From contig AP031359.1 in the NCBI GenBank assembly GCA_037833965.1, forward strand, positions 3,158,001-3,222,000: a DNA stretch of 64,000 nucleotides. Direction: 5' to 3'. The notes beneath the pieces are model-generated. The model saw nothing but the letters and a program-made list of their open reading frames with translations, was not told the origin of the DNA and made no database searches. Made by a program: the position numbers and the translations under genes. Each line of letters opens with the position of its first letter. The stretch's first letter is position 1. The stretch is from Marchantia polymorpha subsp. ruderalis. Lineage: Eukaryota; Streptophyta; Marchantiopsida; Marchantiales; Marchantiaceae. Positions 3,899-64,000 of this stretch are shown here, one piece after another.

Positions 3899-3915
3899 CA
3901 CTACACTGCGCTACG

Positions 3916-9733: not shown

Positions 9734-9769
9734 CATAGTGCAGTGTAGTGCTAGTTAGGACTTAGAAGG

Positions 9770-14349: not shown

Positions 14350-14548
14350 GTGACTGTAATAACCCACTAAAGGCTAAAACTGCAATATAGTGGTAGAAAG
14401 GTCGAACCCACAGGGACAGAGGAACACACAGGGTACAAAGTGTCACGTTTAACAGACTATTGAGGAGTTTGAATTCTCAGGCGACTGTCACTCCCAGAAA
14501 TACTGCAAGTGTCCACTCGGAGCGCACTCGGAGGTCGCACAGTGCAGC

Positions 14549-14583
<35 letters not shown>

Positions 14584-18881: not shown

Positions 18882-18897
18882 GTTGACCATGGTCAAC
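18882..18897. promoter_or_regulatory. Inverted W-box pair in U3 (S2)
   Basis: GTTGACCATGGTCAAC, a perfect palindrome with a different 2-bp spacer (AT) from other copies. The spacer varies while both TTGACC halves persist. Confidence 0.55.
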
Positions 18898-37090: not shown

Positions 37091-38145
37091 AGATGACATG
37101 CAGTGTCGTGCAGCGTAGTGTAGTGTAGAGTGTTAGTTAGGACCTCAGAGGGTATAAAGTAGTTCAAGGCGTTTTGCCTTGGGATTCTTCCAGTTTCGAA
37201 AGTGCAGATTAGGAATTCATTTTCTCTGCGTGTTTGTGTCCTTAGTTCTGTCACCGCGCAAGAGGAGCTACAGCTTGACGAAGATACCGCATTTTGTAGC
37301 TGAAGGCCTTCGGCCGAATGTTCAGAGCTAGTGTACTGGTTAGATACTTGAGCAGTTTGGATCTACGCCTGCGGGTGATTGCTGAATGCTCAGAGCAAGT
37401 AACTGGTTAGATACTTGAGCAGTTTGTCCTTACACCTTCGGGTGATTGTTCCTGTTTGTACTCCTTCGGGATGTTTCCCCTGAATGCCAAAGTGAAGTTT
37501 TGTTACTTCGAGTAAGCCTTGGTTGTAATTCAGGTTACGCTACAGAAGGCGCCCTCGGGGCAAACCTTTGTAGTATTTCTGAGAATGACTAGTGCCTGAG
37601 AATTCAAACTCGTCAATAGATTGTTATGGTGTGCCACTGGATCTTTTCTCAGTTGAGTTTCTCAGTTCGGACCTGTATTCTCTGCGCGTTTTGTGAGTTG
37701 AGTGTGTTGTTCACCGCGTGTGAGTGACTTCGGTTTGACGAGGATACCGCATCCAAAGTAGGAAGGCCAATCCGGATGCCCTGCGCTAGCAGAAACAAGT
37801 GGAAGGGTTGTAAAAGCCGGAGTTAGGAGTCACTGCCTGCAGAGCCTCTAAATGTACTCGTGAGAAACTTTTCCCCGAAAATCTTGAGTGGAGGTCCTAA
37901 CCGACCTCTGTGCTTTTCCAGTTTCAGGTGTTTGTTGGGGTGAACTACGCTGCACTATGCGTCCTCCGAGTGACCTCCGAGTTGAGCACTTGCACTATTT
38001 TTGGGAGTGACAGTCGCCTGAGAATTCAAACTCTACAATAGTCTGTAAAATGTGACACTTTGTACTCTGTGTGTTGCCTCTGTCCCTGTGGGTTTGATCT
38101 TTTTGCTGCTATACTGCAGTTTTAGCCTTTGGTGGGTTATTACAT

Positions 38146-40626: not shown

Positions 40627-41288
40627 TGTGGTAACCCACTTTTTGTATTTTTGCGGAATTTAAAACATTTTTGGAAAACTGTACCACGGCAGCAATGTAA
40701 ATAGCCATCGGTACATTAAAATAGAGTGAAACTGGATGATCTCGTAGAATCTCGTAGAATCCAGGAGTTGGGCGCAATGTCTGGAACAGGCGCCGCCCTA
40801 AACGACGGGCTCTGAAGGAGTACCCCTTCGGCGCAAGGCGCATAATCCGCCTGCGGCGCTACGCCTTTGGCGCTAGAGGAATCCCTCAGAATCTATGCAA
40901 TTCCTTGCAACTCAAACGCCTTGATTTGGTTAGGGTCTTGTTGAAAAGAGCTCAACGCGCTGGTTCTAACGAGCCCAAGAACGCTTGGAACGGATTAGGA
41001 CTCAGGGAGTTGTGACGGTCGAAAGATACGAAGACCTGCGCCTACGCATAGACGAGGGAAGTTCGCCTACGCATAGGCGAAATAGGGTTTGACGACGGCG
41101 GAGAGACCGCCGAGAATGCCGCCTCCGCATAGGCGGGGAGGACTTGCACCTACGCATAGGCAAACGGAGATCGCCTACGCATAGGCGCTTCGACGTCGGC
41201 GGGAAGTCCTCCTTCGGGGTTGGAACTTGTACGGCGCCTTCGGTGCCAGCGCATCACGGTTGGATGAGGACCCAACGGAGTAGCAAAA

Positions 41289-41320
41289 TCCGTACGGACC
41301 GTACGGACTGTACGGACGGA
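41289..41320. promoter_or_regulatory. CCGTACGG array (S9)
   Basis: TCCGTACGGACCGTACGGA followed by a third, altered unit. Two perfect CCGTACGG palindromes 10 bp apart, i.e. about one helical turn. GTAC is the core of SBP/SPL sites; role inferred. Confidence 0.5.
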
Positions 41321-41411
41321 ACGGACGAGTGCGCCTTCGGCTGGTCGGGATTTCGGAGACAAGAGCACCGACGGAGAGGCGAGAGAGAGATGGACAGACT
41401 GGACGGAGTCC

Positions 41412-41427
41412 GTTGACCGCGGTCAAC
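41412..41427. promoter_or_regulatory. Inverted W-box pair in U3 (S9)
   Basis: GTTGACCGCGGTCAAC, about 450 bp upstream of the U3 ORF start at 41877. Confidence 0.55.
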
Positions 41428-41876
41428 ACCTTCGGCACAGCCGCCTTCGGCGCTGTGCCTACGGCGAGGGACCTGCGCGGACGAGCGTCTTGTGTGCGGA
41501 CGGATTTCGCCTACGCATAGGCGAACGCCTACGCACAGGCGGATGAAGTTCGACGCCGGCGGAAGCTCCGTCGGGGATTTCGCCTACACAGAAGGGAGTT
41601 CGGCTTTTGTCCTATGCGCGGACAAACGCCTTCGGTGGAGCGGGACTAGCCAAGTTGAAGTACGGAGAAATGCAGCGCGTCGGCAAGAAATCCGCCTTGG
41701 GCGCTGCGCGACCATGGCCGCGGCGTGGTACGCTGGCATAGTTCAAATTGCCAATTCGAGCGTGTGAGTGAAGGCGCGTCGGCGGAGCGTGAAGCCGCGC
41801 GTGAGAGAGAAGGCCATTATACCTCGGAGCCGGCGCAGTCATCAAGTGATTCGGCTTTCACGACCGAAAGCCGACC

Positions 41877-44800
41877 ATGACCCCCTGTGAGCGGACAGAG
41901 GACACCCCATTCTTGAATTTGCGATTTCAATTTCTTGTGCGAGCTGCGCGCGTCCACCTTCTAGCTGAGAGACGTTCTAGACACCACCGCGCGGAGAGTT
42001 ACCCGGTGGCAGGGAGAGAATTGAGTGCGCGCCATTTGGAATTGAGAGAGATTAGAGTTTGTAGAGGAAACAGAACCGCGAGCAAGAGGCTCGGGCATAG
42101 CAGAGAGAGAGGTGCGCAAACCAATTTCAAGAGCGCGATGTCGACATCGGTGAAGCTGCGGATGGTGCCACTCAAGCTCCCGCAGAATGGATTGCGTGCT
42201 TTTGAGGACCGGCTGATTGCAAGGAAACTCAAATTCTTGCTGTGGGGATGGAATTACGTGTGCGCAGATATGGTGCGCGAATGGCTGGACGAGGAACGAC
42301 AACCTACGCGCGGATTCCGTCCGCACGTAGATCGATGGACTGTCCGCGATTGGGGACACGCATTGGGAAGGTGCGCATGTGAGGAAGGGTACCTCCTGTT
42401 CGACAGTGAGAGCGTCAAAGTATCAAAGGCGGACGAAGTCTCCTTTGTGGAATTGTTCAAGCGGGAGAGGTCTTCCAAGAACGGGTATAGGACCCGGAAC
42501 TACAAAGATCATTTCCGCAGGACCGTAGCGATGGCGCTGCTGCAACTGTTGCAGCCGCACCGCACTACGTACATCACGTTGTGGCAGGTGTCCTTCGTGG
42601 AGCTCACATTGGCTGGAGCTCCAGTTCACTGATCGCGTATCCTGCATAGGGTGATGCGACAGCATGCGTTTGAGGAGCGGGGAGGAACGCTCAATCACCT
42701 CTCCCCCTTCTTGATAAACTTTTATCTGTCGATGAACTGTTTAACCGCGGCCGAGCGTGCTCGATTTCCGCCATTTTCAGTCGATCATCCCGGGAGGTAT
42801 GTGCGGGATAAAGAAGTAGACACCGACGCGGAGGATTCACCGACTTCCACTCCATCAGGTCAACAGGATGCGGGGAGAGACACACCCGCAGCGCGAGTGC
42901 CGCGGAAGCGAAGATGGAGAGAGGAACCGGAGAAAGAGCAACATCAAGAATCAGCTGCTCTCACCCGGAAGCGGCCACTGCACGAGATCTGCAGCCGGCC
43001 GAAGCAGAAGGCGCGCATGCTTTTGTTACCGGCCAGCAGCGCGGAAACGGCGACGATCGCCACAGAGAAGGGAAGTCCATCCCCGGAGAAGGATGGGACT
43101 ACGCGGACGGCCGAGGGGTCAGTAGACCACCCTACGCCTTCGGCGGAGGAGAGACGACCTTCGGGTCAGGAGCTACCACGTGCGGCGCGGATGAGTGTGC
43201 CGCCTACGCATAGGCGACTACCTGTGGATAGGCGACCCCTTGCGGACGTAGACTTGTGCCTACGCATAGGCAGAGAAAGTTCGCCTACGCATAGGCGGGT
43301 GCCTACGCATAGGCAGGACTCACCCCCGGTGCAACGCAGGGAGGGGAAGGAGCCGGCGGAAGATCCGCCTTCGGTTCAAGGGCCTTCGGGGCAAGGCCCT
43401 CCGGCGGTGAGATCGCCGGGATATGTGCCTTCGGCGCCAGGGCCTTCGGGCCACCGAGCTACAAACAGAGAGCCGGTAGGAGCCGCGCCTTCGGCAGAAA
43501 ATCCGCCGGAAGGTGCGCCTTCGGCGGAAGGGCCTTCGGGCCAAGGGACATTGGGCGGCCTGTCTTCGGCGGTCGACGCCTTCGGCGCTGCGCCCTCGGC
43601 GGAAGAAGCGCCGGGAATTGCGCCTACGCGTAGGCCGGACGCATCCCTGGCGCAGGACCTAAGGGTGGAGCAGGACCGATCGGTGGAGCGGATTGACTGT
43701 CCGCGGGGTGAAATTCGTGCGCGCGATGCACAATTACACTCCGCGCACGTACATTCCGCACGATCGCCTTCGGCGGTAGATGCCGGCGGCGAAGAGGTTA
43801 CAGTCGCGGCGGAACAGGGACAGGCGGACGATGGGAATTTGGCACGGCCAAATTCACCCATCGCCTTGGACATTTTAGCAGGGAGCAGCGAGGCTGCAGG
43901 AGCGCCAGCGGCGGCAGAGCACACAGACATCTCGCAGCCCCGCACAGGCCAGTCGCCGACGCATTCAATGGCGACCGAAATCCTCAATTCGGAGGATGAT
44001 GAAGAAGGAGGATCCACGGACTCAGTGTCGGGATCAGGATCCACCGAGGAGGAGGAGGAGGAAATGGTAGGCGCGCCGACGGCGGCGCTCTGTGAGCAGG
44101 TAGTACCTCTGCTGAGGTACCTGGATCGTAAGATGGAGAAGTACGCAGACCCTCGCTAGCCTGGGTCCTACGTCGAGTTAGTGCGTAGGCGAACTCGCAC
44201 TAAAGTCCACACCAGCAAGTTGCTGGCCCGTGTGGACCAGAAACTTAAGGATCTGCGGGAGAAGCATGAGTGCTTGTGGGGTCAGTACAACCTCAATAAG
44301 AAGTTGTACAAACACTTCGACAAGGTGAAGGACGAGAAGCTGGAAGAGTCCGCCAAGGAGAAGGCGAAGCTTACAGAGGAGCTGGATTTTGAGCAGGCTT
44401 AGAATCAAATGTTGTTAGGGGAGCTCGTGCGACAGACACGGTTGTTAGAGCAGTGTTAGCTTGCACGGCAGGCGGATGAGGAATTAATCCGCAGACTGCA
44501 GTCCGAGTGCGGGGAATTGAGAGCACAGCGTGCCGAGGCCGAATTACAGTTGGTTGTAGTTGAAGACGATCGCCGGCGGGCGGCAGATCGCACAAAGGAA
44601 GAGATGGCGAGGCGAGTCACCCACTGGGAAGTGGCGGCGCAGGAGAAACTCACACTGCGTGAGTTAGAGCTTCGTGTAGCCGGGTTGTTGACAGGTGACA
44701 GTCGGAGTCGGCGGCGACTGGCGAAGAAGTTAGACTCTTTTTTGTCGAAGTCACGGGACACCATGGCCACCCTTGAGACGGAGGTTTCCGCGGTGTTGCG

Positions 44801-44882
44801 GCGTTTGGGACTGCGCAGTTGAGCTGAGGACTGGCAGGGTAGGGAGTTAGTGCGCGACAGTCCGTCGCGCAGGAGGCGAAGC
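41877..44882 (+). pseudogene. U3 ORF of S9 (nearly full length, several nonsense changes)
   Basis: ATG at 41877 (MTPCERTEDTPFLNLRF). One frame throughout most of its length, broken by TGA near 42631 (TGG of PVHW), TAG at 44157-44159 (CAG), TAG at 44400-44402 (CAG), TAG near 44458 (CAG) and TGA at 44820-44822 (CGA). A small in-frame deletion has removed the HCLKGY part of the coiled coil near 44620. All stops listed are single C-to-T or G-to-A changes. The middle region holds many CGCCTACGCATAGGCG palindromes in frame (for example 43200-43320). Confidence 0.88.
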
Positions 44883-45294
44883 ACAGGTTCTGCAGAGTGT
44901 AGTGTAGCCTGGTTCCGTGCAGGCGCGTAGCATAGTGCAGTGTAGTGTTAGTTAGGACTTAGAAGGTATAAAGTAGTTCAAGGCGTCTTGCCTTGGGATT
45001 TTTCCAGTTTCGGAAGTACGGATCAGGAACTCATTTTCTCTGCGTGTTTGTGTCCTTAGTTCTGTCACCACGCAGGAAGAGCTACACCTTGGCCGTCCGC
45101 ATTGTGTAGCTGAAGGCCTTCGGCCGAATGTTCAGAGCTAGTACATTGGTTAGAGACTTCAGTAGTTCGGATCTACACCTGCGGGTGATTGCCGATGCTC
45201 AGAGCCATTGACGAGTTAGATACTTGAACAGTTTTCCCCTTACCCTTTTGAGTGACTGTTCCTGATTGTACTCCTTCGGAATTTTTCCCCTGAA

Positions 45295-48607: not shown

Positions 48608-49628
48608 AAAAGAAGTTGTCGGCTTCTTATGTAAGAACCCACTAAAGGCTAAAACTGCAATATAGTGGTAGAAAGGTCGAACCCACAGGGACAAAGGAAC
48701 ACACAGGGTACAAAGTGTCACGTTTAACAAACTATTGAGGAGTTTGAATTCTCAGGCGACTGTCACTCCCAGAAATACTGCAAGTGTTCACTCGGAGCGC
48801 ACTCGGAGGTTGCACAGTGCAGCGTAACACACACACACACCTGAAACTACAGAAACACAACCCAGAGATCCGTTAGGACCTCTACTCAAGATTTCAGGGG
48901 GAAGGTCTCTCAAGAGTACACTCAGCGAAGCTGCGGGTAGTGACTCCCAACTCCGGCTTTTACAACACTTCCACTAGCTTGTTGCTAGCGTAGGAAACCC
49001 GGTTTGAACTGCCTACTTCGGATCGAAGTCACTCATACGCGGTGAACAACACTCTCAACTCACAAAACGCGCAGAGAACACAGGTCCGCACTGAAGGACT
49101 CACTGAGAAACGTTCCAGTAACACAACAACAGTCTATTGAAGAGTTTGAATTCTCAGGCACTTGTCATTCCCAGAAATACTACAGGGGTTATCCCGAAGG
49201 CACCTGCTGCAGCGTAACCTGAATTTACAACCAAGGCTTACACGAAGTAACAAAACTTCACTTTGGCATTCAGGGGAAAAATCCCAAAGGAGTACAATCA
49301 GGAACAGACACTCGAAGGTGTAGGGGCGAAACTATTCAAGTAACTAACTAGTCACTGGCTTTGAGCATCAGCAATCACCCGCAGGTGTAGATCCGAACTA
49401 CTCAAGTCTCTAACCAATGTACCAGCTCTGAACATTCGGCCGAAGGCCTTCAGCTACAAAATGCGGAACGCCAAGTGGTAGCTCCTCTTGCGTGGTGACA
49501 GAACTAAGGACACAAACACGCAGGGAAAATGAGTTCCTGATCTGCACTTCCGAAATTGGGAAAGAACCCAAGGCAAAACGCCTACTACTACTTTATACCT
49601 TCTAAGTCCTAACTAGCACTACACTGCA

Positions 49629-52600
49629 CTACGATACACGCCTGCACCACGCTACACTACACTCCGTAGAATCTGTGCTACGTCTCCTGCGCGACGGACT
49701 GCCGCGCACTAACTCCCTACCCTGCCAGTCTTCTGCTCGAGTGCGCAGTCCCAAACGCTGCAACGCCGCGAACACCTCCACCTCAAGGGTGGACATGGTA
49801 TCCCGCGCCTTCGACAGAAAAGCGTCTAGCTTCTTCGCCACCTTCCGCCGACTCCTGCTGTCACCTGCCAACAACCCTGCTGCGCGAAGCTCTAACTCAC
49901 GCACTGTGAGTTTCTCCTGCGCCGCCACTTCCCAGTGGGTGTAGCCCTTGAGACAGTGGGCGACACGCCTCGCCATCTCCTCCTTCGTGCGATCTGCCTC
50001 TCGCCTGCGATCCTCTTTAATTACCACCAACTGCGATTCGGCCTCCGCACGCAACGCTCTCAATTCACCACACTCTAACTGTAGCCTGCGGATTAAATCC
50101 TCATCCGCCTGTCGTGCGAGCTGACACTCCGCCAACAAACGCGTCTATCGCACGAGCTCCTCTGACAGAATCTGATTCTAAGTTCTCTCAGACATCAAAT
50201 CCGTCGTGGTCTTCACCACATCCGTGGTGAGCTCTTCTAGTCTCTCCTTCTTCATCCTGTCGAGGGCGTGCGATTTCCTCACAAGGTTGTACTTACCCCA
50301 CAAACAGGCATGCTTCTCCCTCAAGTCCTTCAATTCCTGGTCCGTCCTAGCTAGTAGCTTGCTAGTGTGGACTTTAGTGCAAGTCCGCCTGCGCACTAAT
50401 TCGATGTAAGATCCCGGCTGGAGTGGATCGGCGTATTTATCAAATTTGCGATTCAAGTACTTCAGCAACGGTATCACCTGCTCAGAGAGCTCCGCCGCCG
50501 GCGCTCCAACAATTTCCTCCTCCTCCTCCTCGGTATCCCCTGCTCCCGACATTGCTTCTGTGGAGCCTCCGTCGTCATCATCCGAGTTAAGGATTTCAGT
50601 CGCCATTGATTGCGTTGGCGACTGATCCGAGTGGGGCTGCACGTCGTCTCCGGGTGCTGCCTGCGAAGGCACAGCTGCAGCCTCGCTGCTCTTTGCTAAA
50701 ATGTCCAAGGCGGTGGGTGAATGTGGCCGTGCTGCATCCCCGTCGCCCGCTTGTCGGTCTTCGACCGTATCCTCTCTGCCGCCGACGTCCGCCGCCGAAG
50801 GCGATCGAGCGGAGTGTGTCTGCGCGGGGTTTGATTGCGCATCGCGCACCGAAATTTCGTCCCGCGAACAGTCAATCCGCTCCTCCGTCATGTCCTGCTC
50901 CCTCGATCGGTCCTGCGCAAGGGCTGTGCATGGCCTGTGCGCAAGCGCAAATGCCGGCGCTTTGTCCGCCGCTGGCGCAGCGCCGAAGGCGTCTATCGCC
51001 GAAGGCGACATAGCCGGAGGCCGCTCGCCCGATGTCCCTTGGCCGGTAGGCCTTACCGCCGAAGGCGCATCTACCGGCGGACTACCCGCCGATGGTGCGG
51101 CCTCCGCACGCTCCCTGTTCGCATCTTGTTGGCCCGGAGGCCCTGGCGCCGAAGGCGCAAATCGCGGCGCGTTGGACGCCGGAGGATCTGGCCCCGAAGG
51201 CCCATGACCCGTAGGCGGATCTTCCGCCGGCTCCTTCCCCTTCCTACGTTGGAACGGGGGTGAATCCTGCCTGTGCACAGGCGGACTGCTTCTTCCTACG
51301 CGTAGGCGTAGGTCCACGTCCGCTTGTGGTCGCCTTTCCGTCGAGGCTCGCCTGTGCGCAGGCGGAACACCCGTCCGCAACGCACGTGGTAACTCCGGAG
51401 GCCCTTGGCCCGTAGGCGGCCTCTCGTTCGTCGAAGGTGCAGCGTGGTCCGTTGCTCCTGCAGACGTCCGCGCTCCCTCGTTCTTCTCCGGCGACGCACT
51501 TCCTTTCTCCGTGGCAATCGTCGCCGTGTCCGCGCTGCTGGCTGGTAACACAAGCCTGCGCGCCTTTTGCTTCGGCCGGCTGCGCACTTCGTGCAACGGA
51601 CGCTGCCGAATGGGAGCATTGGGTTCTTGATGCTGCTCCTCTTTGGACTCCTCTCTCCATCGCCGCTTCCGCGGCATTCTTGCTGCGGGAGTGTTTCTTC
51701 CTTCGTCCCTCCGCCTTGGCGGAGTAGAAGTCGGCGACTCCTCTGCGTCAGTGTCGCTCGTTGTCTCGCACATACTTTCCGGGATGGTCGACGGACAACG
51801 GCGGAAAACGAGCAAGCTCCGCCGCGGTCAAACAATTTCGCTGCCGATAAAAATTGATGAGGAAAGGAGAGAGATGATTTAGAGTTCCCCCCTTCTCCTC
51901 AAAAGCGTGGTGTCGCATCACTCTGTGCAGGATGCTCGCCCAGTGAATTGGAGCTCCCTCGATGATGCACTTAACAAAAGAGACCTGCCACAATGTGATG
52001 TAGCAGGCGCGGTGTGGCTGCAGTAATTGCAGCAGCGCCGTAGCCACAGTTCGGCGGAAGCGATCCTTGTAATCGCGGGTCTTGTACCCATTCTTGGTAG
52101 ACCTCTCCGGCTTGAACAGCTCCACAAATTGCGCCTCGTCCTGCTTAGACACCTTGACGCTCTCACTATCAAAGAGGAGGTGCCCTGAGATGCCAGCACA
52201 CCTCCCTAAGGCTTGCGCCCAATCTTGGACTGTCCACCGATCGACATGCGGACGCAATCCGCGCGAAGGTGGTCTCTGTGGTTCTAGCCACTCACGCACC
52301 ATATCCGCACAAATGTAGTTCCATCCCCATAGCAAGAAATCGAGCTTTCTTGCTATCAGCCGTTCCTCGTAAGCGCGCAGCCCGTTCTGTGGCAGTCGGA
52401 GCGGTAGCATCCGCAATCGGCTCAGCCTCGACATTGCGTTCTTGGAATTCGCCTGTCCGCTAATTCTCCTTCTGCTCCGCTCGAGCTCCTTGCTTCCTCG
52501 GCAAACTCTAATCTCACTTAATTCCAAATCACGCGCACTCACTTCTCTCTCAATCACCAAGTAATCCTCTGCGCGGCAATGTCGGGAATGCTTAGCAGCT

Positions 52601-52686
52601 AGCAGATGGACGCGCGCAGCTCGCACTAGAAAATGGAATCGCGAATTCAAGAATGGGACGCTCTCCGCCTCCCGGTCGAAGGTCAT
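49629..52686 (-). pseudogene. U3 ORF of E3 (three lesions)
   Basis: ATG at 52686 (MTFDREAESVPFLNSRFHF). Open to 51748, then a 2-nt deletion near 51755 (E4 has GTCGACCTCATTC, here GTCGCTCGTTG) shifts the frame, which is open again 51815-50178. TAG codons near 50177 and 50147 replace CAG codons of TQNQ and VRQTR (C-to-T). The C-terminus is open 50138-49629 and ends differently (CSVAWCRRVS) because of a small deletion. Otherwise colinear with the intact protein. Confidence 0.88.
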
Positions 52687-53094
52687 GGTCGGCTCTTGCC
52701 CGTGAGGGTCGACTCAAATGATGGCCGCGCCGGCTCTACGCTAAAACGGTCTCCGCTCTCACGCGCGGCTTCACGCTCCACCGACGCCGATTTAACTCAC
52801 ACGCTCGAATTGGCGAATTTGAACTCCGCGAGCGTACTACGCCGCGGACATGGGTGCGCAGCGCCGAAGGCGGATTTTCCGCCTTGCGAGGTACACTCGT
52901 TCGTATCGCTCCTAAGCCAATCCTCCTCTGCCTCGGCGCTTGTCCGCACGTCGGACAAAAGTTCAACTCCCGCCTGTGTGCAGGCGGACTCCTCGGCGGA
53001 TCCTCCGCCGGCGCGGAACTTCACCCGCCTGTGCACAGGCGCTCGCCTCCGCGTAGGCGAATTCCGTCCGCGTCGATGAGCTGGCGCGGAAGGC

Positions 53095-53110
53095 GTTGAC
53101 CGCGGTCAAC
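53095..53110. promoter_or_regulatory. Inverted W-box pair in U3 (E3)
   Basis: GTTGACCGCGGTCAAC; identical to M1 and S9. Confidence 0.55.
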
Positions 53111-53203
53111 AGCCTCCCGCCCCCAGACTGTCCGTTCCTTGTCTCTCCGTCGGCGCGCTCGCCGCCGCAACTCCGCCCGACCACGAGCACATCCATCCAT
53201 CCC

Positions 53204-53232
53204 GTCCGTACAGTCCGTACGGTCCGTACGGA
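53204..53232. promoter_or_regulatory. CCGTACGG array (E3)
   Basis: Three consecutive TCCGTACRG units at 10-bp spacing, the longest clean array in the window. Confidence 0.5.
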
Positions 53233-53490
53233 TTTTACTATTCTGGCGGCTCCTTGCTCGTCCGCGCCGTTGCGCTGGCGCAGAAGGCGCCGTACAATTT
53301 CTACCTCCGAAGGCGCATTTCTAGGGCCGAAGGCGGATTTCCCGCCGACGCCGGAGCGCCTGTGCACAGGCGGACGCCTGTGCGTAGGCGAACTTCGCGC
53401 CTACATCAAAACCCTATTTCGCCTGTGCGTAGGCGAACTTCCTTCTTCCGCGCATAGGACAAAACCTTCTTCGCCTGTGCACAGGCGGAA

Positions 53491-54321: not shown

Positions 54322-55293
54322 TGTAATAACCCACTAAAGGCTAAAACTGCAATATAGTGGTAGAAAGGTCGAACCCACAGGGACAGAGGAACACACAGGG
54401 TACAAAGTGTCACGTTTAACAGACTATTGATGAGTTTGAATTCTCAGGCGACTGTCACTCCCAGAAATACTGCAAGTGTCCACTCGGAGCGCACTCGGAG
54501 GTCGCACAGTGCAGCGTAACACACACACACACACACACACACACCTGAAGCTACAGAAATACAACCCAGAGATCCATTAGGACCTCTACTTCAAGATTTC
54601 AGGGGGAAAGTCTCTCGCGAGCACACTCGGCAAAGCTGCGGGCAGTGACTTCCAACTCCGGCTTTTACAACACTTCCACTAGCTTGCTGCTAGTGTAGGA
54701 AATCCGGTTTGGACTGCCTACTTCGGATCGAAGTCACTCCTACGCGGTGAACAACACTCTCAACTCACAAAACGCGCAGAAAACACAGGTCCGCACTGAA
54801 GGACTCACTGAGAAACATTCCAGTAACACAACAACAGTCTATTGAAGAGTTTGAATTCTCAGGCACTTGTCATTCCCAGAAATACTACAGGGGTTACCCT
54901 CAAGGCACCTGCTGCAGCGTAACCTGAATTTACAACCAAGGCTTACACGAAGTAGCAAAACTTCACTTTGGCATTCAGGGGAAAAATCCCAAGGGAGTAC
55001 AATCAGAAAGAAACACTCGAAGGTGTAGGGGCGAAACTGTTCAAGTATCTAACTAGTCACTGGCTCTGAGCATCGGCAGTCACCCGCAGGTACAGATCCG
55101 AACTACTCAAGTCTCTAACCAATGTACTAGCTCTGAACATTCGGCCGAAGGCCTTCAGCTACAAAATGCGGAACGCTAAGTTGTAACTCCTCGTGCGTGG
55201 TGACAGAACTCAAGGACACAAACACGCAAAGGAAATGGGTTCCTGATTTGCACTTCTGATGGGAAAGAACCCCAGGCAAAACGCCTGGAACTA

Positions 55294-55317
55294 TTTTATA
55301 CCTTCTAAGTCCTACCT
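55294..55317 (-). promoter_or_regulatory. TATA box of E4 3' LTR
   Basis: TATAAAA on the minus strand (55300-55294), about 40 bp after the stop of the U3 ORF. It is followed by the CCAGGC/GCCTGG hairpin (about 55271-55287). In the 5' LTR the same box would drive the genomic RNA. Confidence 0.6.
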
Positions 55318-55336
55318 AGCACTACACTGCACTACG

Positions 55337-58300
55337 CTACACGCCTGCACGGAACCACGCTACACTACACTCCGCGGAACCTGTACTACGTCTCCTGCGC
55401 GGCGGACTGCCGCGCACTAACTCCCTACCCTGCCAATCTTCCGCTCGACCGCGCAGTCCCAATCGTTGCAACGCCGCGGACACCTCCACTTCGAGGGCGG
55501 ACATGGTATCCTGCGCCTTCGACAGAAAAGCGTCGAGCTTCTTTGCTACCTTCCGCCGACTCCTACTGTCGCCTGACAACAACCCGGCTGCGCGCAGTTC
55601 AAACTCACGCAGTGTGAGTTTCTCCTGCGCCTTCACTTCCCAGTGGGCGTAGCCCTTGAGACAGTGGGCGACACGCCTCGCCGTCTCCACCTTCGTGCGA
55701 TCCGCCTCAATTATCACTAATTGCGATTCGGCCTCAGCACGTTGCGCTCTCAATTCGCCACACTCTGACTGTAACCTGCGGATTAACTCCTCATCCGCCT
55801 GCCGTGCGAGCTGACATTGTTCCAACAACCGCGTCTGTCGCACGAGCTCCTCTGACAAAATCCGATTCTGGGCCTGCTCAGAAATTAGTGCTTCCTTGAC
55901 CTTCACCTGCTCCTTGGTGAGCTCGTCTAGTTTCTCATCCCTCACCTTCTCGGAGTACTTGTAGAATTTCTGATTAAGTTTATACTTACCCCACAAGCAT
56001 GCATGCTTCTCCTTCAATTCCCTCAACTCCTGGTCCACTCTAGCTAATAGCTTGCTGGTGTGGACTTTAGTGCGAGTCCGCCTGCGCACTAATTCGATGT
56101 AAGATCCCGGCTGGAGTGGGTCGGCGTATTTATCGACCTTGCGATCCAAGTACCTCAGCAACGGAATCACCTGCTCAGAGAGCGCCGCCGCCGGCGCTCC
56201 AACAATTTCCTCCTCCTCTTCCTCAGTGTCCTCTGCTCCTGACATTTCTTCGGTGGAGCCTCCGTCGTCATTATCCGAGTGGAGAATTTCAGTCGCCATT
56301 GATTGCGTCGGCGACTGACCCGAGTGGGGCTGCACGTCGTCGACGTGTGCTGCCTGCGAAGGCACGGCTGCAGCCTCGCTGCTCTTCGCCAAAATGTCTA
56401 AGGCGGTAGGCGAATGTGCCCGTGCGGCATCCCCGCCGCTCGCTTGTTGGTCGTCTACCGTGTCCTCTCTGCCGCCGACGCCCGCCGCCGAAGGCGATCG
56501 AGCGGAGGGTGGCTGCGCGGGGTTTGATTGCGCATCGCGCATCGAAATTTCATCCCGCGGACAGTCGCTCCGCTCCTCCGTCTGTTGCTGCCTTGATCGG
56601 TCCGTGGGGGCTGTGCTTGGCCTGTGCGCAGGCGCAAATGCCGGCGCCTTGTCCGCCGCAGGCGTAGCACCGCGGACGTCCACCGCCAAAGGCGACATGG
56701 CCGGGGGCCGCTCGCCCGATGTCCCTTGGCTCATAGGCCCTACCGCCGAAGGCGCATCTATCGGCGGACTACCCGCCGATGGTGCGGCCTCCGCACGCTC
56801 CCTGCTCGTATCTCCTCGGCTCGAAGGCCCTGGCGCCGAAGGCGCAAATTGCGGCGCGTGGTGCGCCGGAGGGTCTGGCCCCGAGGGCCGGTGTCTCGTA
56901 GGCGGCTCTTCCGCCGGCTCCTTCCCCTTCCTACGTTGGAACGGGGGTGATTCCTGCCTGTGCACAGGCGGCACGTGTGGAGGTGACCTGTGCACAGGCG
57001 GACTGCTCCTTCCCACGCGTAAGCGTAGATCTACGTCCACTTGTGATCGCCTGTAAGCGGAGGCTCGTCCGTCCGCGGAGTCTCGTCTGTGCGCAAACGG
57101 AACATCTGTCCGCAACGCACGTGGTAACTCCGGAGGCCCTTGGCCCGTAGGCGGCCTCTCGCCCGTCGAGGCTGCAGCGTGGTCCGTTGCTCCTGCGGTC
57201 GTCCGCGCTTCCTCATGCTTCTCTGGCGACGCACTTCCTTTCTCCGTCGCAATCGTCGCCGTGTCCGCACTGTTGGCTGGTAACACCAGTCTGCGTGCCT
57301 TCTGCTTCGGCCGGCTGTATGACTCGTACAACGGCCGCGGTCGAATGGGAGCAGAGGGTTCTTGATGCTGCTCCTCTTCGGACTCTTCTCTCCATCGCCG
57401 CTTCCGCGGCACTCGTGCTGCAGGAGTGTTTCTCCCTTCGTCCCTCCGCCTTGATGGGGTAGAAGTCGATGACTCCTCTGCATCAGTGTCGACCTCATTC
57501 TCCCGCACATACTTCCCGGGATGGTCGACGGACAACGGCGGAAAATGCTCAAGCTCCGCCGCTGTCAAACAATTCCGCTGTCGATAAAAATTGATGAGGA
57601 AAGGAGAGAGATGGTTTAGAGTTCCCCCCTTCTCCTCAAAAGCGTGCTGTCGCATCACCCTGTGCAGGATGCTCGCCCAGTGAATTGGAGTTCCCTCGAT
57701 GACGCACTCCACAAAAGAGACCTGCCACAATGTGATGTAGCAGGCGCGGTGTGGCTGCAGTAATTGCATCAGCGCCGCGGACAAAGTCCGGCGAAATCGA
57801 TCCTTGTAATCACGGGTCCTGTACCCATTCTTGGTAGACCTCCCGGTCTTGAACAGCTCCACAAATTGCGCCTCTTCCTGCTTGGTCACCTTGATGCTCT
57901 CACTGTCGAAAAGGAGATGCCCTGGCATGCCGGCACATCTTCCCACTGCCTGCGCCCAATCTTGGACTGTCCACCGATCAACATGCGGACGCAATCCGCG
58001 CGAGGGTGGTCCCTGTGGCTCTAGCCACTCGCGCACCATATTCGCACAGATGTAGTTCCATCCCCATAGCAAGAAATCGAGCTTTCTTGCTATTAAGCGC
58101 TCCTCAAAAGCGCGCAGCCCGTTCTGTGGTAGGCGAAGTGGCACCATCCGCAATCTGCCCGGTCTCGTCATTGCGTTCCTGGGGTTCGCTCGCCCGCTCA
58201 TTCTACTTCCGCACCGCCCGAGCTCCTTTCTCTCTCGGCAAACTCTAATCGCCCTCAATTCCAAATCACGCGCACTCACTTCCCCCTCAATCACCAAGAA

Positions 58301-58423
58301 ATCTCCTGTGCGGCGACGTCGAGAATGTTTAGCAGCCAGCAGATGGATGCGCGCAGCGCGCACAAGAGATTGGAATCGCGAATTCAAGAATGGAACGTTC
58401 TCCGCCGCCCGGTCGAAGGTCAT
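55337..58423 (-). CDS. U3-encoded protein of the giant LTR, complete (1,028 aa), unknown function
   Basis: Only full-length copy in the window. ATG at 58423 in the context GACCATGA. Residues 1-90: basic leader. Residues 90-310: conserved region (LRMVPLRLPQNGLRAFEERL, FLLWGWNYIC, LRPHVDRWTVQDWAQAVGRC, NGYRTRDYKDRFRR, TLWQVSFVE, LSPFLINFY). Residues 310-720: low-complexity P/S/A/G with basic clusters PRKRRW (339-344), RPKQKARR (371-378) and QRRKGK that could be nuclear signals. Residues 716-742: acidic. Residues 750-985: coiled coil rich in E/L/R (EELVRQTRLLEQCQLARQADEEL). Basic C-terminus. No signal peptide or membrane span is seen. The N-terminal region is faintly like the 'putative plant transposon protein' domain found in ORFs of Athila-type elements, but I cannot confirm that. 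It is conserved in at least nine LTR copies. Confidence 0.9.
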   Translation of the reverse strand: MTFDRAAENVPFLNSRFQSLVRAARIHLLAAKHSRRRRTGDFLVIEGEVSARDLELRAIRVCRERKELGRCGSRMSGRANPRNAMTRPGRLRMVPLRLPQNGLRAFEERLIARKLDFLLWGWNYICANMVREWLEPQGPPSRGLRPHVDRWTVQDWAQAVGRCAGMPGHLLFDSESIKVTKQEEAQFVELFKTGRSTKNGYRTRDYKDRFRRTLSAALMQLLQPHRACYITLWQVSFVECVIEGTPIHWASILHRVMRQHAFEEKGGTLNHLSPFLINFYRQRNCLTAAELEHFPPLSVDHPGKYVRENEVDTDAEESSTSTPSRRRDEGRNTPAARVPRKRRWREESEEEQHQEPSAPIRPRPLYESYSRPKQKARRLVLPANSADTATIATEKGSASPEKHEEARTTAGATDHAAASTGERPPTGQGPPELPRALRTDVPFAHRRDSADGRASAYRRSQVDVDLRLRVGRSSPPVHRSPPHVPPVHRQESPPFQRRKGKEPAEEPPTRHRPSGPDPPAHHAPQFAPSAPGPSSRGDTSRERAEAAPSAGSPPIDAPSAVGPMSQGTSGERPPAMSPLAVDVRGATPAADKAPAFAPAHRPSTAPTDRSRQQQTEERSDCPRDEISMRDAQSNPAQPPSARSPSAAGVGGREDTVDDQQASGGDAARAHSPTALDILAKSSEAAAVPSQAAHVDDVQPHSGQSPTQSMATEILHSDNDDGGSTEEMSGAEDTEEEEEEIVGAPAAALSEQVIPLLRYLDRKVDKYADPLQPGSYIELVRRRTRTKVHTSKLLARVDQELRELKEKHACLWGKYKLNQKFYKYSEKVRDEKLDELTKEQVKVKEALISEQAQNRILSEELVRQTRLLEQCQLARQADEELIRRLQSECGELRAQRAEAESQLVIIEADRTKVETARRVAHCLKGYAHWEVKAQEKLTLREFELRAAGLLSGDSRSRRKVAKKLDAFLSKAQDTMSALEVEVSAALQRLGLRGRAEDWQGRELVRGSPPRRRRSTGSAECSVAWFRAGV

Positions 58424-58832
58424 GGTCGGCTCTTGCTCGTTGAGAACGTCTCACTTGATGGCCGCGCCGGCTCTACGCTGGAACGGTCTCCGCTCTCACG
58501 CGCGGCTTCACGCTCCGCCGTCGCCGATTAAACTCTCACGCTCGAATTGGCGGATTTGAACTCCGCGAGCGTATTACCCCGCGGACATGGAAGCGCAGCG
58601 CCGAAGGCGAGTTTTCCGCCTTGCGCGGTACACTTGTTCGTACCGCCCCTCGGCCAATCCCCTTCTGCCTCGACGCGTGTGTCCGCATGTTGGACAAAAG
58701 TTCAACTCCTGCCTGTGCGCAGGCAGACTCCTCGGCGGATTCTCCGCCGGCGCGGAACTTCATCCTCCTGTGCACAGGCGCTCGCCTGTGCGCAGGCGAA
58801 TTCCGTCCGCGGCGTCGCGCTGGCGCGGAAGG

Positions 58833-58848
58833 CGTTGACCGTGGTTAG
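58833..58848. promoter_or_regulatory. W-box pair in U3 (E4), one half mutated
   Basis: GTTGACCGTGGTTAGC: left TTGACC intact, right half changed from GGTCAA to GGTTAG. Confidence 0.5.
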
Positions 58849-59142
58849 CCGTCTCCGTCCAGTCTGTCCGTTCCTTGTCTCTTCGTCGGCGCTTCCGCCG
58901 CCGCAACTCCGTCCGTCCCAGAGCGCATCCACCCGTCCCGTCCGCATGGTCCGTACGGATTGGATTACTCTGGTGGCTCCTTGCTCGTCCGCGGCGCCGC
59001 GCTGGCGCAGAAGGCGCCGTACACTTTCTACCTCACAAGGCGCATATCTAGGGCCCAAGGCGGATTTTCCGCCGACGCCGAAGCGCCTGTGCACAGGCGA
59101 ACGCCTGTGCGTAGGCGGACTTCGCGCCTCCCCAAACCCTAC

Positions 59143-59162
59143 TTCGCCTGTGCACAGGCGAA
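59143..59162. repeat. 20-bp perfect GC palindrome
   Basis: TTCGCCTGTGCACAGGCGAA, a member of the same family as 1804-1823 but with core TGTGCACA in place of TACGCGTA: both halves have changed together. Confidence 0.8.
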
Positions 59163-59668
59163 CGTCCTTCGTCCGCGCATAGGACAAAACTTGATTCCCC
59201 CTTCCGCGTAGGCGGAATTCCCGCCGGTGGCGAACTCCTTCCGCCAAAGGCGAACGTCTACGTATCTTCCGATAGTGATAACTCCCTAAGTCCTCATCCG
59301 TTCCAAACGTTCTTGGGCTCGTTGGAATCAGTGCGTCGAGCTCTTTCCAACGAAACCCTAACTCGGTCAAGGCGCCCGAGGGTTGACCTAATTATGGAGG
59401 ATTTCCCTACCGCCGCGGACGCAACCTCCGAAGGCGGGTTTTGCGCCTTGCGTCGCAGGGATCCTAACTGCAGAGCTCGCAGGGAGGGTGGTGCCTGTCC
59501 TTACTGCTGCACCCCAAATCCTAGATTCTCCAAGATCTCTCGAGAATCCCCGCGATCTTCCGGATTCACTCCGTTTTGATGTACCGAAGGCTATTTACAA
59601 TTCTGCCAGGGTACAGTTTTCCAAAAATGTTTTAATTTCCTCAAAATTGCCAAAAGTGGGGTACCACA

Positions 59669-59684
59669 TGCCCCCCTCCTCAAT
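59669..59684 (-). other. Polypurine tract of E4
   Basis: Minus strand TTGAGGAGGGGGGCA, directly before LTR base 1 (59668) and about 20 nt after the pol stop (59706). It primes plus-strand synthesis and fixes the LTR boundary. Confidence 0.85.
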
Positions 59685-59705: not shown

Positions 59706-62545
59706 TCACATGTGGTATTTCTTCAACCGCCACCCGTTCACTCGGGTGCCTAACAAATCGCCGGCCAGGTCCGCAAGTTGGATGGATCCATTCGAGAAGA
59801 CTTCGACAACCCTGTAAGGTCCCATCCATCTTAGGTGCAGTTTGCCTGGGAATCTGGCATGCCTGCTGTCGTAGAGCAATGCCAAATCACCCGCCTGCAG
59901 GAGTACAGGTTTGATCTTTTTATCGTATCTCTCCTTTCGGCGGAGCTGGATTTTCCTGGTGCGATCTTCGGCGTCTTGTCTCCTCTCATCCAGCAGCGTG
60001 ACCTCCTGTAACCTGTAGAGCTGACTCTCCTCTGCGCCCATCCTCTGCAAATCCAACGTTCGTTGGGTGGGTACTTCAAATTTGATCGGGAGGATCGGGT
60101 GTTGCCCATACACCAGAAAGTATGGTGTCTGTTTGGTCGTGATCTTCTCAGCTGTCCGGTACGCCCATAGAGCGGCTGCTAGCTTCGTATCCCAGTCGTG
60201 AGCGTGATTCACCGTGACCTTGAGTAGTATTTTACACAACAGACCATTGGACTTCTCCGTCAGTCCATTTGCCTTGGGATTGTATGGAGTAGTCTTCCGG
60301 TGCTTGATGTGGAAATACCGTGTCAGATCTTCGATGATCTGATTCAGAAAATGCGTGCCCCGGTCGCTGACTAGCTCTAAGGGACATCCGTAGCGTGTGA
60401 TGATCGACTCAAACAAGAAGGCTGCCACTGTGGCAGCATCATCCCTTCTGGTGGCTCTGGCCTCTACCATTTTGGTGGCGTAGTCCGTTGCTACCAGAAT
60501 GTAGCGCCTTCGTGTACTTCTAGTCACTGGTTGTATCGGCCCTACAAAGTCAATGCCCCACTTCTCGAAAGGTGCTAGAGGCATGATGGGAGTCAGGGGC
60601 CAGCGTGTTGTAGGCGTCGGTCTCCCTGTCCTCTGGCAACTGTCGCACTTGCGGATGTAATCGAGAACATCCTTAAACATGGTCGGCCACCAATACCCCG
60701 CATTTAAAATCTTTGTGACCGTGTTCCTGGTGGCATAGTGTCCACCCGCCTCCTCTGTATGCATCGCACTCACTATTCTTGGTACCTCTGATTCCTCCAG
60801 GCATCTGCATAAGCGCTCATCTGCCATTTTCTTGAACAAAACCCCCTGCTGGAGTTGGTACGGGCCTGCCTTATGAATAAAGACAGTTCGCTGTTCCAAA
60901 TCCATGCCTACGGGACACTGGAGGGTTAGCAGGTATCGATACAGGTCGGCATAGCGGGACTCATGTCTTGCAGACAACTGAAATAACTCTTCATCTGGAA
61001 AATCGTCCACCAATTCCTCCTCTGTCGGCTGGGTCCATAATCGGGACAAGTAATCCGCATTTTCGTGGTGCACCCCTTTCCTGGTCTGGACTGTGTAGGT
61101 GAACTCTTGTAGTAACAACACCCACCTGGCGATCCGACCGGATAGGTCGGCTTTCTTGACTAGGTGTTGCAATGCGTAGTGGTCCACATGGAACACAAAC
61201 TCGTAGCAGATTAGGTAGTGACGGAACTTTTTACAGGAGTACACCATCCCCAACGCTTCTCTCTCCGTCGTGGTGTACTTTCGCTCTGCTAGAGACAGCT
61301 GTCGGCTCGCGAAGTAGATCGGGTAGTCCTTTTTGTTGTCATCCTTTTGACTCAGTACTACACCGATGGCGAATGCAGATGTGTCAACGTAAACATGGAA
61401 TGGTCGATTCCAGTCTGGATCCTTAGCACGGGAGCAGTCGTGAGTTTCGCTTTAAGAGCCTCAAATGCTGACTGCTGGTTCGCACCCCAAGCATAAGGCT
61501 CGTCCTTCTTCAACAACTTGGTCAGGTCCGCCGCCAGTATTGCATACAGGTGTATGAACCTTCGGTAGTAGCCCACATGACCCAGGAATGCTCGCAGCTC
61601 TCTTAGATTCGTGGGTGGCTCAAGCTCGAGTATAACTTTGACCTTCTCGATGTCCACCGCAATGCCGTCTGCTGAGACCCGATGACCCAACAAGATCCCA
61701 CTAGTCATAAAGAAAAAGCACTTCTCGGGATGCAGTGATAAACTGCTCTCTCTACATTTATCGAAGGTCTGCTTCAAGTGACTTAGGTGTTCAGACCGCT
61801 TCCCAAAGACACAGAAGTCATCTATGAATATTTCCAGGAACTTCCTCAGTTGTTCTTGGAAGATATTGGTCATCATCCGTTGAAAGGTGGCAGGCGCGTT
61901 GCACAGACCGAAGGGCATCTTGTGGTATGCGTAAGTTCCCCAGTCGGTTGTGAACGTAGTTTTATCCTTGTCCTGTTCCCGGATAGACACCTGATTGTAA
62001 CCTGAGAACCCATCCAGGAAGCTATAACATTCATGTCCTGCGACATGGTCTAGAATGGCATCCGTGAATGGTAACGGGTGATGATCCTTGCGTGTTGCTG
62101 CATTCAACTTCCGGAAATCCTGACACACTCGTATCTTACCCGTCAACTTCTTGGGTACGATAACAATCGGCGACACCCACTCACTGCTGAGCACAGGGTA
62201 AATAATACCAGCACTCAAGTACTTATCTATCTCCTCCTTAACTAGCAAGGAGTATTTTGGGTTGAGGCGATACTGGCGCTGTCGTATGGGTACTGAGTCG
62301 TCCAGTAAATCGATACGGTGTTCCCCATACCGTGCAGGTATCCCCTTCATGTCTTCGATCTTCCAGGCGAAGACGTCGACATAATGGCTAAGGAATGCCT
62401 GTACTTTCCTTAGCTCGTCTCCTCTCACTGCGCTTGATACCTTCAAGCACTTGTCGGGACTGAGTTGTACTTCGTGACAGTCACTAGGGTCGACAATGCC
62501 CTCGGTGTGACTCGTCTCACTCCTTCCCAGTCCCACAGTTAATTG
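59706..62545 (-). pseudogene. RT-RNase H-integrase of E4 (one frameshift)
   Basis: Follows the UAG in frame. RT: SPIVIVPKKLTGKIRVCQDFR, SFLDGFSGYNQV, HKMPFGLCNAPATFQR, and the catalytic box FIDDF (61827-61813). A single-base deletion near 61416, after APVLRI, shifts the frame. RNase H then continues (VLSQKDDNKK, TTTEREALGMVY, HVDHYALQHL, HENADYLSRL). Integrase: H/C zinc finger (GGHYATRNT...CDSCQR), core WGIDFVGPI, LVATDYATKM, SDRGTHF, TEKSNGLL (D, D, E), then the GPY/F module LRWMGPYRVVEVF and tail VNGWRLKKYHM. No chromodomain. The enzymes copy the RNA and insert the DNA. Confidence 0.92.
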
Positions 62546-62548
62546 CTA
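62540..62548 (-). other. Readthrough-type stop between protease and RT (E4)
   Basis: GAC-GAA-TAG-CAA-TTA on the minus strand, with RT in the same frame downstream. Identical to E3 over all nine bases of TAG-CAA-TTA and in the two codons before it. Confidence 0.72.
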
Positions 62549-64000
62549 TTCGTCTTCCGGCTGAATAGCTTCCGGCTCTTCTTCTTCTCCCACCGAACAG
62601 CAGGCAACGAATCCCACGAAATAATCGGATTCGGTACCACTGGAATCCGATCGCGCGGTCGACTCACTGTCCCCGCCCGATGTGTAACCTGTACTTGTCG
62701 ATGGGGTCTCCCCTTCGTGTCTGACCCTATTCCAGGGCACCGTAATGGTTTTGGTCGGTTCCGAAGGATGGGGAAACTTAAGGCGATGCCTTCGCCAATC
62801 ACATCTGACTTGTGCGCCATATAGCCATGGTCGCCCGAGCAGAACGTCATAGCCCTGCTTCATCATCGGTTGAAGGATCATATACGTCAACCGAAAGTCC
62901 GCACCCCCGATGATTGTCTTGACATTGCGCAGCATACCTGCAGGCATTCTCCGCGTCTGATCCGCTAATCTCAACACACGCTTCGAGGGTTCGTATTGAC
63001 TGAACCCCAAGGCTCTCGCGGTATCCTCCGTCATTATGTTGACTCCTGATCCAGAGTCGATTGGCACCCTGCGTACACAACACCCTGCTATTTCCACATC
63101 GATCTCTGGTGGCCCTTGGTCTTCGCTCTCCACTTGATATACTTGAGAGGATGTGGATGCGCGCGGCTTCCGCGGATGCCGTAGCGAAAGCATCAACATT
63201 CTCCGATACGTCTTATTGTCCTCCAAGAGCTGCTTGAACGTGATGTTCACTTTTCGACTCCCGAGATCTTCGACCAAGTCATAGTGGGCGCGTTGGGTCG
63301 CCGGGGTCGGCGGCGACGCTCTGCGAGGTTCCACGGTGGCTGCCAACTTCGCCCCAAGGGAGGATGTCAAGTCTGGCCGCGGTGGGTCCTTTTGAGTGCG
63401 GATCGCTTCCTTCAACAGGTTGGTTACCTCGTTGCGGATATCCGGAGCATAGTCCCGTTTCAGCAAGCGTACTGGCTCGTCCTCGACTGCTGTCTGGGGG
63501 CGCACTGCTGGTGCCTCTCGCGTAGCCGAAGACTTCCGTGCAGGTCGCAAGTCGGGCTTGCTGGATGTCTTCTCCTTCCCTTTTCCCGTCCGGTCGTCGG
63601 TTCTCCGTTCGTGCTTACGAGTGTCACGCTCTTGCTCCTTCGATTTCTTGGAACCACGAGTTTCGACCCGTGCGCACATAACCTCTTCAGCCGGCCATTC
63701 TTCGTCTTCGTCATCCCCGTCTGAACCTACTTCGACCTGGTTAACTTGGACGTCCTCCTTGGCAGGAGGGTTCACAAATCGTACCGCTGGCCGAGGGACT
63801 GGTGGCTGATCACACTCTGGCGCAGTATGCCCGATCTTCTTGCAATTACTACATGTCGGAGCATAATCGTTTCGCCTTTTTGGATGAGGACACTGCGGTG
63901 AGAAGTGTCCAACTTCCCCGCAATTATAACAAGCTCGCGGTGGCGGTGGGTCAAACGTCCCTGGAGGTGCTCTCCGCCTCACGGGTACTGTAGTGGCCCG
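62546..64000 (-). CDS. gag C-terminus and aspartic protease of E4 (5' part outside window)
   Basis: Open from the right edge (RATTVPVRRRAPPGTF) to the TAG at 62546-62548, so the start codon lies beyond 64000. It contains two knuckles (CYNCGEVGHFSPQC, CSNCKKIGHTAPEC); the first knuckle of the family lies outside. A D/E-rich stretch and a basic K/R linker are followed by the protease with EIDVEIAGCCVRRVPIDSGSG (active-site D-S-G) and YDVLLGRPWLYGAQV. E3 has the same reading with one amber. It would be cut by its own protease into Gag products and enzymes. Confidence 0.9.
   Translation of the reverse strand, partial: RATTVPVRRRAPPGTFDPPPPRACYNCGEVGHFSPQCPHPKRRNDYAPTCSNCKKIGHTAPECDQPPVPRPAVRFVNPPAKEDVQVNQVEVGSDGDDEDEEWPAEEVMCARVETRGSKKSKEQERDTRKHERRTDDRTGKGKEKTSSKPDLRPARKSSATREAPAVRPQTAVEDEPVRLLKRDYAPDIRNEVTNLLKEAIRTQKDPPRPDLTSSLGAKLAATVEPRRASPPTPATQRAHYDLVEDLGSRKVNITFKQLLEDNKTYRRMLMLSLRHPRKPRASTSSQVYQVESEDQGPPEIDVEIAGCCVRRVPIDSGSGVNIMTEDTARALGFSQYEPSKRVLRLADQTRRMPAGMLRNVKTIIGGADFRLTYMILQPMMKQGYDVLLGRPWLYGAQVRCDWRRHRLKFPHPSEPTKTITVPWNRVRHEGETPSTSTGYTSGGDSESTARSDSSGTESDYFVGFVACCSVGEEEEPEAIQPEDE

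Follow-up and report, generated by a model that had tools for sequence, protein, structure and literature searches.

The window, the whole 64,000-nucleotide stretch of Marchantia polymorpha subsp. ruderalis DNA analysed here (C1:3158001-3222000, in a genome of 241 Mb in 9 contigs), carries on its minus strand the 3' part of a Ty3/gypsy retrotransposon whose 3' long terminal repeat (LTR) encloses a long open reading frame (ORF). The features that define this arrangement are the following.

54322..59668, minus strand: 3' LTR of the element, 5,347 bp, with TG...CA ends, a polypurine tract (PPT) on its 5' side and identical ends in solo copies with target-site duplications (TSDs)
59671..59680, minus strand: PPT AGGAGGGGGG, directly before the LTR
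U3 ~59668-55275 and R-U5 ~55274-54322, minus strand: division of the LTR, the start of R being estimated from the TATA box
55337..58423, minus strand: 1,028-codon open frame within U3 (of 27 LTR copies or pieces, 11 have a frame >1,000 codons)
55337..58171, minus strand: putative true gene of 944 codons running from Met-85 to the stop, with codon-position bias beginning at Met-85
58172..58423, minus strand: 84 in-frame codons showing at most slight signs of coding constraint (pooled differences by codon position 600/776/876, 20 copies)
55291..55300, minus strand: the sole TATA box of the LTR (TATAAAATAG), 37 nt past the ORF stop

LTR boundaries and position of the gene

On the minus strand the LTR runs from TGTGGTACCCCAC at 59668 to GTGGGTTATTACA at 54322, its last bases being TTACA. 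Two bases, CA, separate the PPT AGGAGGGGGG from the initial TG, and 37 bp, with the PPT among them, lie between the end of pol (stop at 59706-59708) and the LTR start. Because PPT and LTR start follow pol so closely, the gene belongs to the LTR. At the opposite end, copies with an internal region continue from GTGGGTTATTACA into TAAGAAGCCGACAAC... and then a primer-binding site (PBS) for tRNA-Asp. Matching 100 listed leader junctions with 69 listed PPT junctions (to C3:21.13 Mb) over a 3-9 kb range gave 45 pairs, 41 of them enclosing 5,786-5,818 bp (the remaining four 4,209, 4,666, 5,935 and 8,014 bp); leaders outside these pairs are partnerless in the lists used. An internal region of ~5.8 kb leaves too little space for the ORF to fit between PBS and PPT.

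The TSD survey covered 22 LTR copies (20 loci fetched from the genome, given L-numbers, and two window copies, prefixed W_; 4 of the 22 partial). Solo LTRs flanked by exact 5-bp duplications occupy seven independent sites (W_14355, L014, L020, L021, L022, L024 and L025), including GTCAC at window 14355-19673 and CTTCG at L014. The L014 site was counted once, L015 and L016 being segmental duplicates of it: at C7:17.36-17.40 Mb the same solo LTR with the same TSD recurs at 16.6-kb intervals, with three occurrences in all, by segmental triplication. An eighth solo site, S1 at window 1340-10749 (TSD ACCAT), is split by a nested LTR. Among two-LTR elements, L029/L030 has matching flanks CCGGC and LTRs differing at 18/5361 bp, and L023/L027 has flanks ATAAG and 18/5362 differences, with an internal region of ~17.5 kb by coordinates that presumably carries an insertion. 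For L031/L032, within a tandem array, the PPT precedes L032 and the leader follows it. The 5' LTR of the window element is L009 (C1:3223468-3228855, 5,388 bp), which differs from the 54322-59668 LTR at 182/5331 sites and whose outer flank has no match to the element's 3' flank; given these differences and unmatched flanks, the pair is probably an inter-element recombinant, not a single clean insertion.

These data bear on whether the LTR might be mis-drawn, in which case an ordinary extra ORF (eORF) would follow pol ahead of a shorter 3' LTR and the apparent LTR copies would be nested or tandem rearrangements. Nesting and tandem (LTR-internal)n arrays do exist in the genome, and rearrangement or truncation affects L041 and L043; however, the repeat that contains the ORF has TSDs at eight independent solo sites and in two elements. 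This alternative is refuted for the elements examined, and we give it next to no weight overall. The ORF-containing repeat is a true LTR, its ends confirmed by solo-LTR TSDs and by two-LTR elements, and the boundaries at 54322 and 59668 proposed in a preliminary description of the window stand. A search of our sample for full elements with LTRs ending before the ORF found the ORF region in both LTRs of all five alignable sister pairs (in each of two other pairs one LTR is damaged).

The TATA box lies 37 nt past the ORF stop in 16/16 copies, matching the short distance first described, and no further TATAWAW occurs in any of the 16; because this one box comes after the ORF stop, the gene is placed in U3. 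The initial proposal of a third, sense-strand gene in U3 that is duplicated with the LTR is thus borne out by junctions, TSDs, the sister-LTR comparison and the selection tests given below, and the likeness to the position of sag and nef at the 3' end holds in that the ORF lies downstream of the PPT, inside U3.

The frame exceeds 1,000 codons in seven of 19 full LTRs (W_54322, L018, L022, L024, L025, L026 and L032; the count leaves out the segmental copies L010, L015 and L016) and in four of eight LTR pieces (L037-L040) taken from four elements picked by junctions only. The statement that every solo LTR keeps the gene applies to the sequence, which is retained, but not to the frame, which exceeds 1,000 codons at only three of the seven surveyed solo sites (L022, L024 and L025). 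Nor does the family spread the gene as solo LTRs: these copies retain the sequence, but they are products of recombination that do not spread on their own. No difference separates L038 from L039, sister LTRs of a single element, over 3,084 nt; the ORF is open in both, and the family has accordingly been active recently.

Selection on the gene and features of its protein

Among 11 open copies (L038 and L039 both included), the pooled ratio of nonsynonymous to synonymous differences per site (pN/pS) was 0.28, far below 1 in this sample and in keeping with the gene status first assigned to the ORF; 54 pairs ranged from 0.132 to 0.397 and one pair was identical. Six open copies gave ratios of the corresponding substitution rates (dN/dS) of 0.205-0.39, and their pooled pN/pS was 0.24 in the N-terminal, 0.49 in the middle and 0.16 in the C-terminal region. 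Twelve further matches in the window (amino acid identity 50-82%, dS 0.2-1.6) had dN/dS of 0.20-0.59, the maximum coming from a stretch of codons 1-88, and the six with dS of ~0.7 or more (to 1.6) fell within 0.20-0.45.

Differences between elements were distributed over the three codon positions as 177/155/372 (704 total; 6 disjoint pairs, some including broken copies; p 2e-26), against 14/12/9 (35 total) within five sister-LTR pairs, three of which (L031/L032, L036/L037 and L038/L039) are sisters by position, not by matched TSD (Fisher p 0.0017 for the contrast). Two pairs, L040/L041 and L042/L043, were dropped as unalignable, one LTR being rearranged and one cut after about codon 260, as was recognised from the count itself; with both kept in, the sister-pair sum is 757/820/825. 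W_54322/L009 (36/17/45) was dropped for its unmatched flanks and its 182 differences, a between-element size, and adding it makes the within-pair sum 50/29/54. Insertions and deletions in multiples of three were weakly enriched in the ORF (9/17, vs 5/21 and 3/12 in the flanking LTR parts). As a separate observation, a short integrase stretch in four copies has a third-position excess as well. Sequence comparison thus shows the ORF to be a real gene under purifying selection between elements, with none apparent between sister LTRs after insertion.

Constraint is not uniform along the frame. Over 20 copies, the codon-position differences were 674/209/2076 for codons 85-310, 3075/2923/4549 for the middle and 1086/944/3243 for codons 736-1008, and the 84 codons before Met-85 resemble a non-coding control, with counts in diverged copies of 24/29/25, 27/23/25 and 18/17/18 and a milder bias in the two closest copies (6/8/12 and 7/11/18). 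Moreover, 7 of 24 aligned homologues begin at the residue matching Met-85. The constrained protein therefore probably starts at Met-85 (window 58171) and has 944 rather than 1,028 residues; the size first reported holds for the open frame and not for the part under constraint.

Could the frame be open by composition only, in GC-rich LTR DNA with few stops and no protein? The G+C fraction of 0.61 at 56001-58000 and an antisense stop-free frame of 245 codons at 56319-57056 are what such a reading would lead one to expect. It is countered by the pN/pS of 0.28 and the third-position excess between elements, by homologues at 46-51% identity and by dN/dS of 0.20-0.45 at dS 0.7-1.6, only the 84 codons ahead of Met-85 behaving much like the non-coding control, and we consider it highly improbable.

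The protein comprises an N-terminal conserved region (~aa 85-310), a Pro/Ser-rich middle (~311-735) and predicted C-terminal long helices (~745-998), which we take to be a coiled coil. In the full-length structure model, mean pLDDT (the model's per-residue confidence score) was 45, reaching 85-94 over aa 801-900 only and 54-64 over 901-1000; a model of the N-terminal domain averaged 46, the N-terminal region being helical by prediction. There was no match to PDB chains at E up to 1 and none to Pfam at E up to 10 for the window ORF protein. When 28 family members were compared with Pfam at E up to 10, Transposase_28, the plant mobile domain and Athila ORF-1 were absent among the 17 families matched. 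Weak matches to Extensin_1 (2e-4), SCNM1_acidic (1e-3) and CENP-K (2e-3) were set aside, each occurring in one or two of the 28 members.

Protein searches, each length-limited with ~8,000 candidates scored, returned 4 homologues (all Marchantia polymorpha), 27, and 46 at E up to 10. The 46 comprise 37 from Marchantia polymorpha (subsp. ruderalis), where homologues at 46-51% identity occur, and 9 from metagenome contigs, and none bears a host-gene name. One metagenome protein cluster, P0030 (5 members, 306 aa), is 96% identical to part of the ORF, which suggests that the species of the window genome or a close relative was present in environmental samples.

LTR elements are known to capture genes (PMC7264820), and the ORF might accordingly be a passenger, derived from a separate mobile element or a host gene recently inserted into the LTR. 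The same layout nevertheless recurs in diverged window copies (dS 0.7-1.3), 0/46 homologues from the length-limited searches (~8,000 candidates scored) carry a host-gene name and the ORF is under purifying selection; a passenger origin is very unlikely. To judge from sequence similarity, Marchantia polymorpha gene models matching the ORF are probably retroelement genes, a caution for annotation pipelines that mask LTRs as non-coding.

Internal region, copy number and genomic setting

Upstream of the LTR, the window element carries pol domains and a protease, and another copy has a PBS.

59706..61247, minus strand: 3' part of pol, with the end of RNase H, an H2C2 zinc finger and the integrase core (Pfam)
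61358..62350, minus strand: reverse transcriptase (PF00078, E 1.3e-27)
62546..64000, minus strand: aspartic protease (PF13650 in 62549-63679) with zinc-knuckle motifs ahead of it, running off the window edge
2862..2879, minus strand: tRNA-Asp-matching PBS TGGCGCCGCTGCCGGGGA, belonging to another copy and placed 22 nt past the LTR end

The zinc knuckles ahead of the protease were spotted by eye in the translation; a neighbouring copy has gag with a zinc knuckle by Pfam (46972-48543). Reverse transcriptase ahead of integrase, a PBS, a PPT, TG...CA LTRs and 5-bp TSDs place the family among Ty3/gypsy LTR retrotransposons. Pfam comparison of the pieces scanned (E up to 1) showed no chromodomain after integrase; such a lack is a trait of the Ogre/Tat/Athila (OTA)/Tat superclade, as is the tRNA-primed PBS, here offset by 22-23 nt from the LTR end; a second RNase H (aRH, as in Tat) was likewise absent from the Pfam matches in those pieces. 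The family is best explained as a gag-pol-bearing, recently active, non-chromoviral Ty3/gypsy lineage.

The PBS matches the 3' end of the genome's tRNA-Asp(GTC) gene over 17 nt, the A of CCA being added by inference. At window 2862-2901 and at LTR-leader junctions genome-wide, it starts 22-23 nt after the LTR end and does not adjoin it; integrase trimming and another primer are candidate explanations for a correct LTR end despite this offset. Folding lent no support (z -0.43) to a hairpin noted by eye between the LTR end and the PBS.

Genome-wide, allowing up to 2 mismatches (backwards-pattern controls 0), we counted 6,451 LTR 3' ends, 3,315 LTR 5' ends, 1,362 junctions of LTR end and leader (the pattern spans the LTR end and 18 nt of adjoining spacer) and 1,154 junctions of PPT and LTR start; these patterns tally ends, not ORFs, and the 3'- and 5'-end patterns may cover different subfamilies. 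Tandem (LTR-internal)n arrays with an 11.1-11.2 kb period occur at C2:31.345-31.385 Mb, C3:20.85-20.88 Mb and C4:14.48-14.49 Mb and look like products of LTR-LTR or element-element recombination; LTR size within them is 5,296-5,385 bp in 8/11 values (others 4,230, 4,737 and 10,704). The window itself holds further copies.

1340..10749, plus strand: solo LTR S1, TSD ACCAT, with a nested LTR of the same family inside (flank comparison)
14355..19673, minus strand: solo LTR, TSD GTCAC, ORF broken with 494 aa still open (TSD survey)
35816..38144, plus strand: older 5' LTR with an ORF piece (aa 70-389; dS 1.33, dN/dS 0.25, 3 stops), R-U5 and leader from 38145
40627..45294, plus strand: diverged LTR copy with the ORF at 41877-44924 (65% aa identity, dS 0.69, dN/dS 0.30, 5 stops)
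48630..53490, minus strand: partial 5' LTR followed by leader and gag, with ORF traces and stops at 49641-52686 (sequence comparison, Pfam)

C1 measures 5.6 Mb, with C2-C7 and C9 at 24-33 Mb each, and may be a sex chromosome. Parts of the window recur in three near-identical copies on C1 (2.46, 2.87 and 3.21 Mb; spacing ~0.34-0.41 Mb), possibly large segmental repeats on a small contig or an assembly artefact. A 15-bp repeat forms two arrays ~0.3 kb apart at window 34114-34824, and a scan of the window with Rfam at gathering thresholds gave zero matches.

Proposed cycle and comparison with known systems

Retroelement genomic RNA has the order R-U5-gag-pol-U3-R, and daughter copies take U3 from the 3' LTR only. 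We propose, with a probability of about 0.8, that the third gene of this Ty3/gypsy family sits inside U3, helps the element's own cycle and arose through a shift of the PPT. The genomic RNA would start at the TATA-driven R and contain a single copy of the gene, at its 3' end; from this RNA, or from a spliced or subgenomic form, the protein would be made. As the parent's 3' LTR supplies U3 to both new LTRs, daughters would inherit the 3' gene copy alone; 5' and solo copies would be dead ends unless transcribed from elsewhere. With its predicted long helix (taken as a coiled coil) at the C-terminus, the product may be an accessory protein that acts close to the genomic RNA, to the particle or to nuclear DNA. 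Its likeliest origin would be an ordinary sense eORF after pol that was engulfed by the LTR, a new PPT arising directly behind pol shifting the LTR start upstream. Such PPT relocation suggests a simple route from a post-pol gene to a U3 gene, as in some retroviruses.

Several observations weigh against this proposal. In the window copy, eight ATGs lie upstream of the 1,028-codon frame, no AATAAA occurs in 16 LTRs, and no ORF promoter, poly(A) signal or splice site was identified with confidence. As to autonomy, the window pol lies in two overlapping minus-strand frames (61358-62545 and 59706-61451, stop to stop), reflecting either a broken copy or a frameshift. The within-pair test comprises 35 changes only, with three of eight pairs dropped, in two cases once the count was known, and a test of singleton vs shared sites gave no contrast, old and new changes not being separated (Fisher p 0.92).

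Alternatively, a promoter dedicated to the ORF might lie within the preceding 1.2 kb of U3, making each solo LTR a free-standing gene whose protein acts in trans as a helper or dose-dependent limiter. The ORF is whole within one LTR and open in three solo LTRs (L022, L024 and L025), and the 1.2-kb stretch ahead of it evolves fast, all of which would suit this idea; yet a TATA box lies upstream of the ORF in 0/16 copies, the eight upstream ATGs stand in the way, and no selection is visible after insertion, as expected if single copies do not matter. We regard an own promoter as unlikely, if not negligibly so. By analogy with sag loci in mice, solo LTRs with an open frame might express the protein in trans, as a family-wide helper or brake outliving the elements; this is somewhat more doubtful still, and if true, an accessory gene would be dispersed with the family's LTRs, at thousands of LTR ends. 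With a conserved gene in its LTR, the family offers natural replicates, sister LTRs (neutral) vs elements (selected), with solo copies readable as single-gene loci.

Mouse mammary tumour virus (MMTV) sag and lentiviral nef are genes in U3. The present gene resembles them in its place in U3, past the PPT, in its duplication along with the LTR and in occurring, presumably once, at the 3' end of the genomic RNA; it differs in showing no sequence match (PDB E up to 1, Pfam E up to 10) and in belonging to a Ty3/gypsy element of a plant host. We know of no established function for the extra ORFs of plant gypsy elements. In the excerpts on which this comparison draws, those ORFs are placed in the internal region (PMC7264820). 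Plant Ty3/gypsy elements with extra or additional ORFs (eORF/aORF; OTA superclade, eORF-3'F) share with this family a non-chromoviral pol, an extra sense ORF after pol, a large LTR and 5-bp TSDs (PMC6317226, PMC7264820). Like eORF-3'F elements, which are defined by a sense ORF of 250 codons or more behind pol, this family has such an ORF; however, their extra ORFs are internal (PMC7264820), between pol and the 3' LTR, whereas this one is inside U3 and hence in both LTRs. Elements of the same host group likewise yielded no second RNase H, but an LTR-encoded gene goes unmentioned in the excerpt describing them (PMC10508981). Rice Retrosat2, RIRE3 and RIRE8 combine long LTRs (~3 kb or more) with an extra ORF of unclear function, but their ORF0 lies upstream of gag-pol, outside the LTR (PMC3485330). 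Retand also has an extra ORF beyond pol, but its TRP28 ORF is antisense and between pol and the 3' LTR, its LTRs are short (315-1,194 bp; PMC11963269) and the protein described here has no Transposase_28 match. The open-licence literature searched describes no plant element with a U3-encoded gene, in agreement with the preliminary description. Undescribed in plants within the reach of these searches, the family is a real and selected accessory-ORF variant of gypsy with a retrovirus-like layout.

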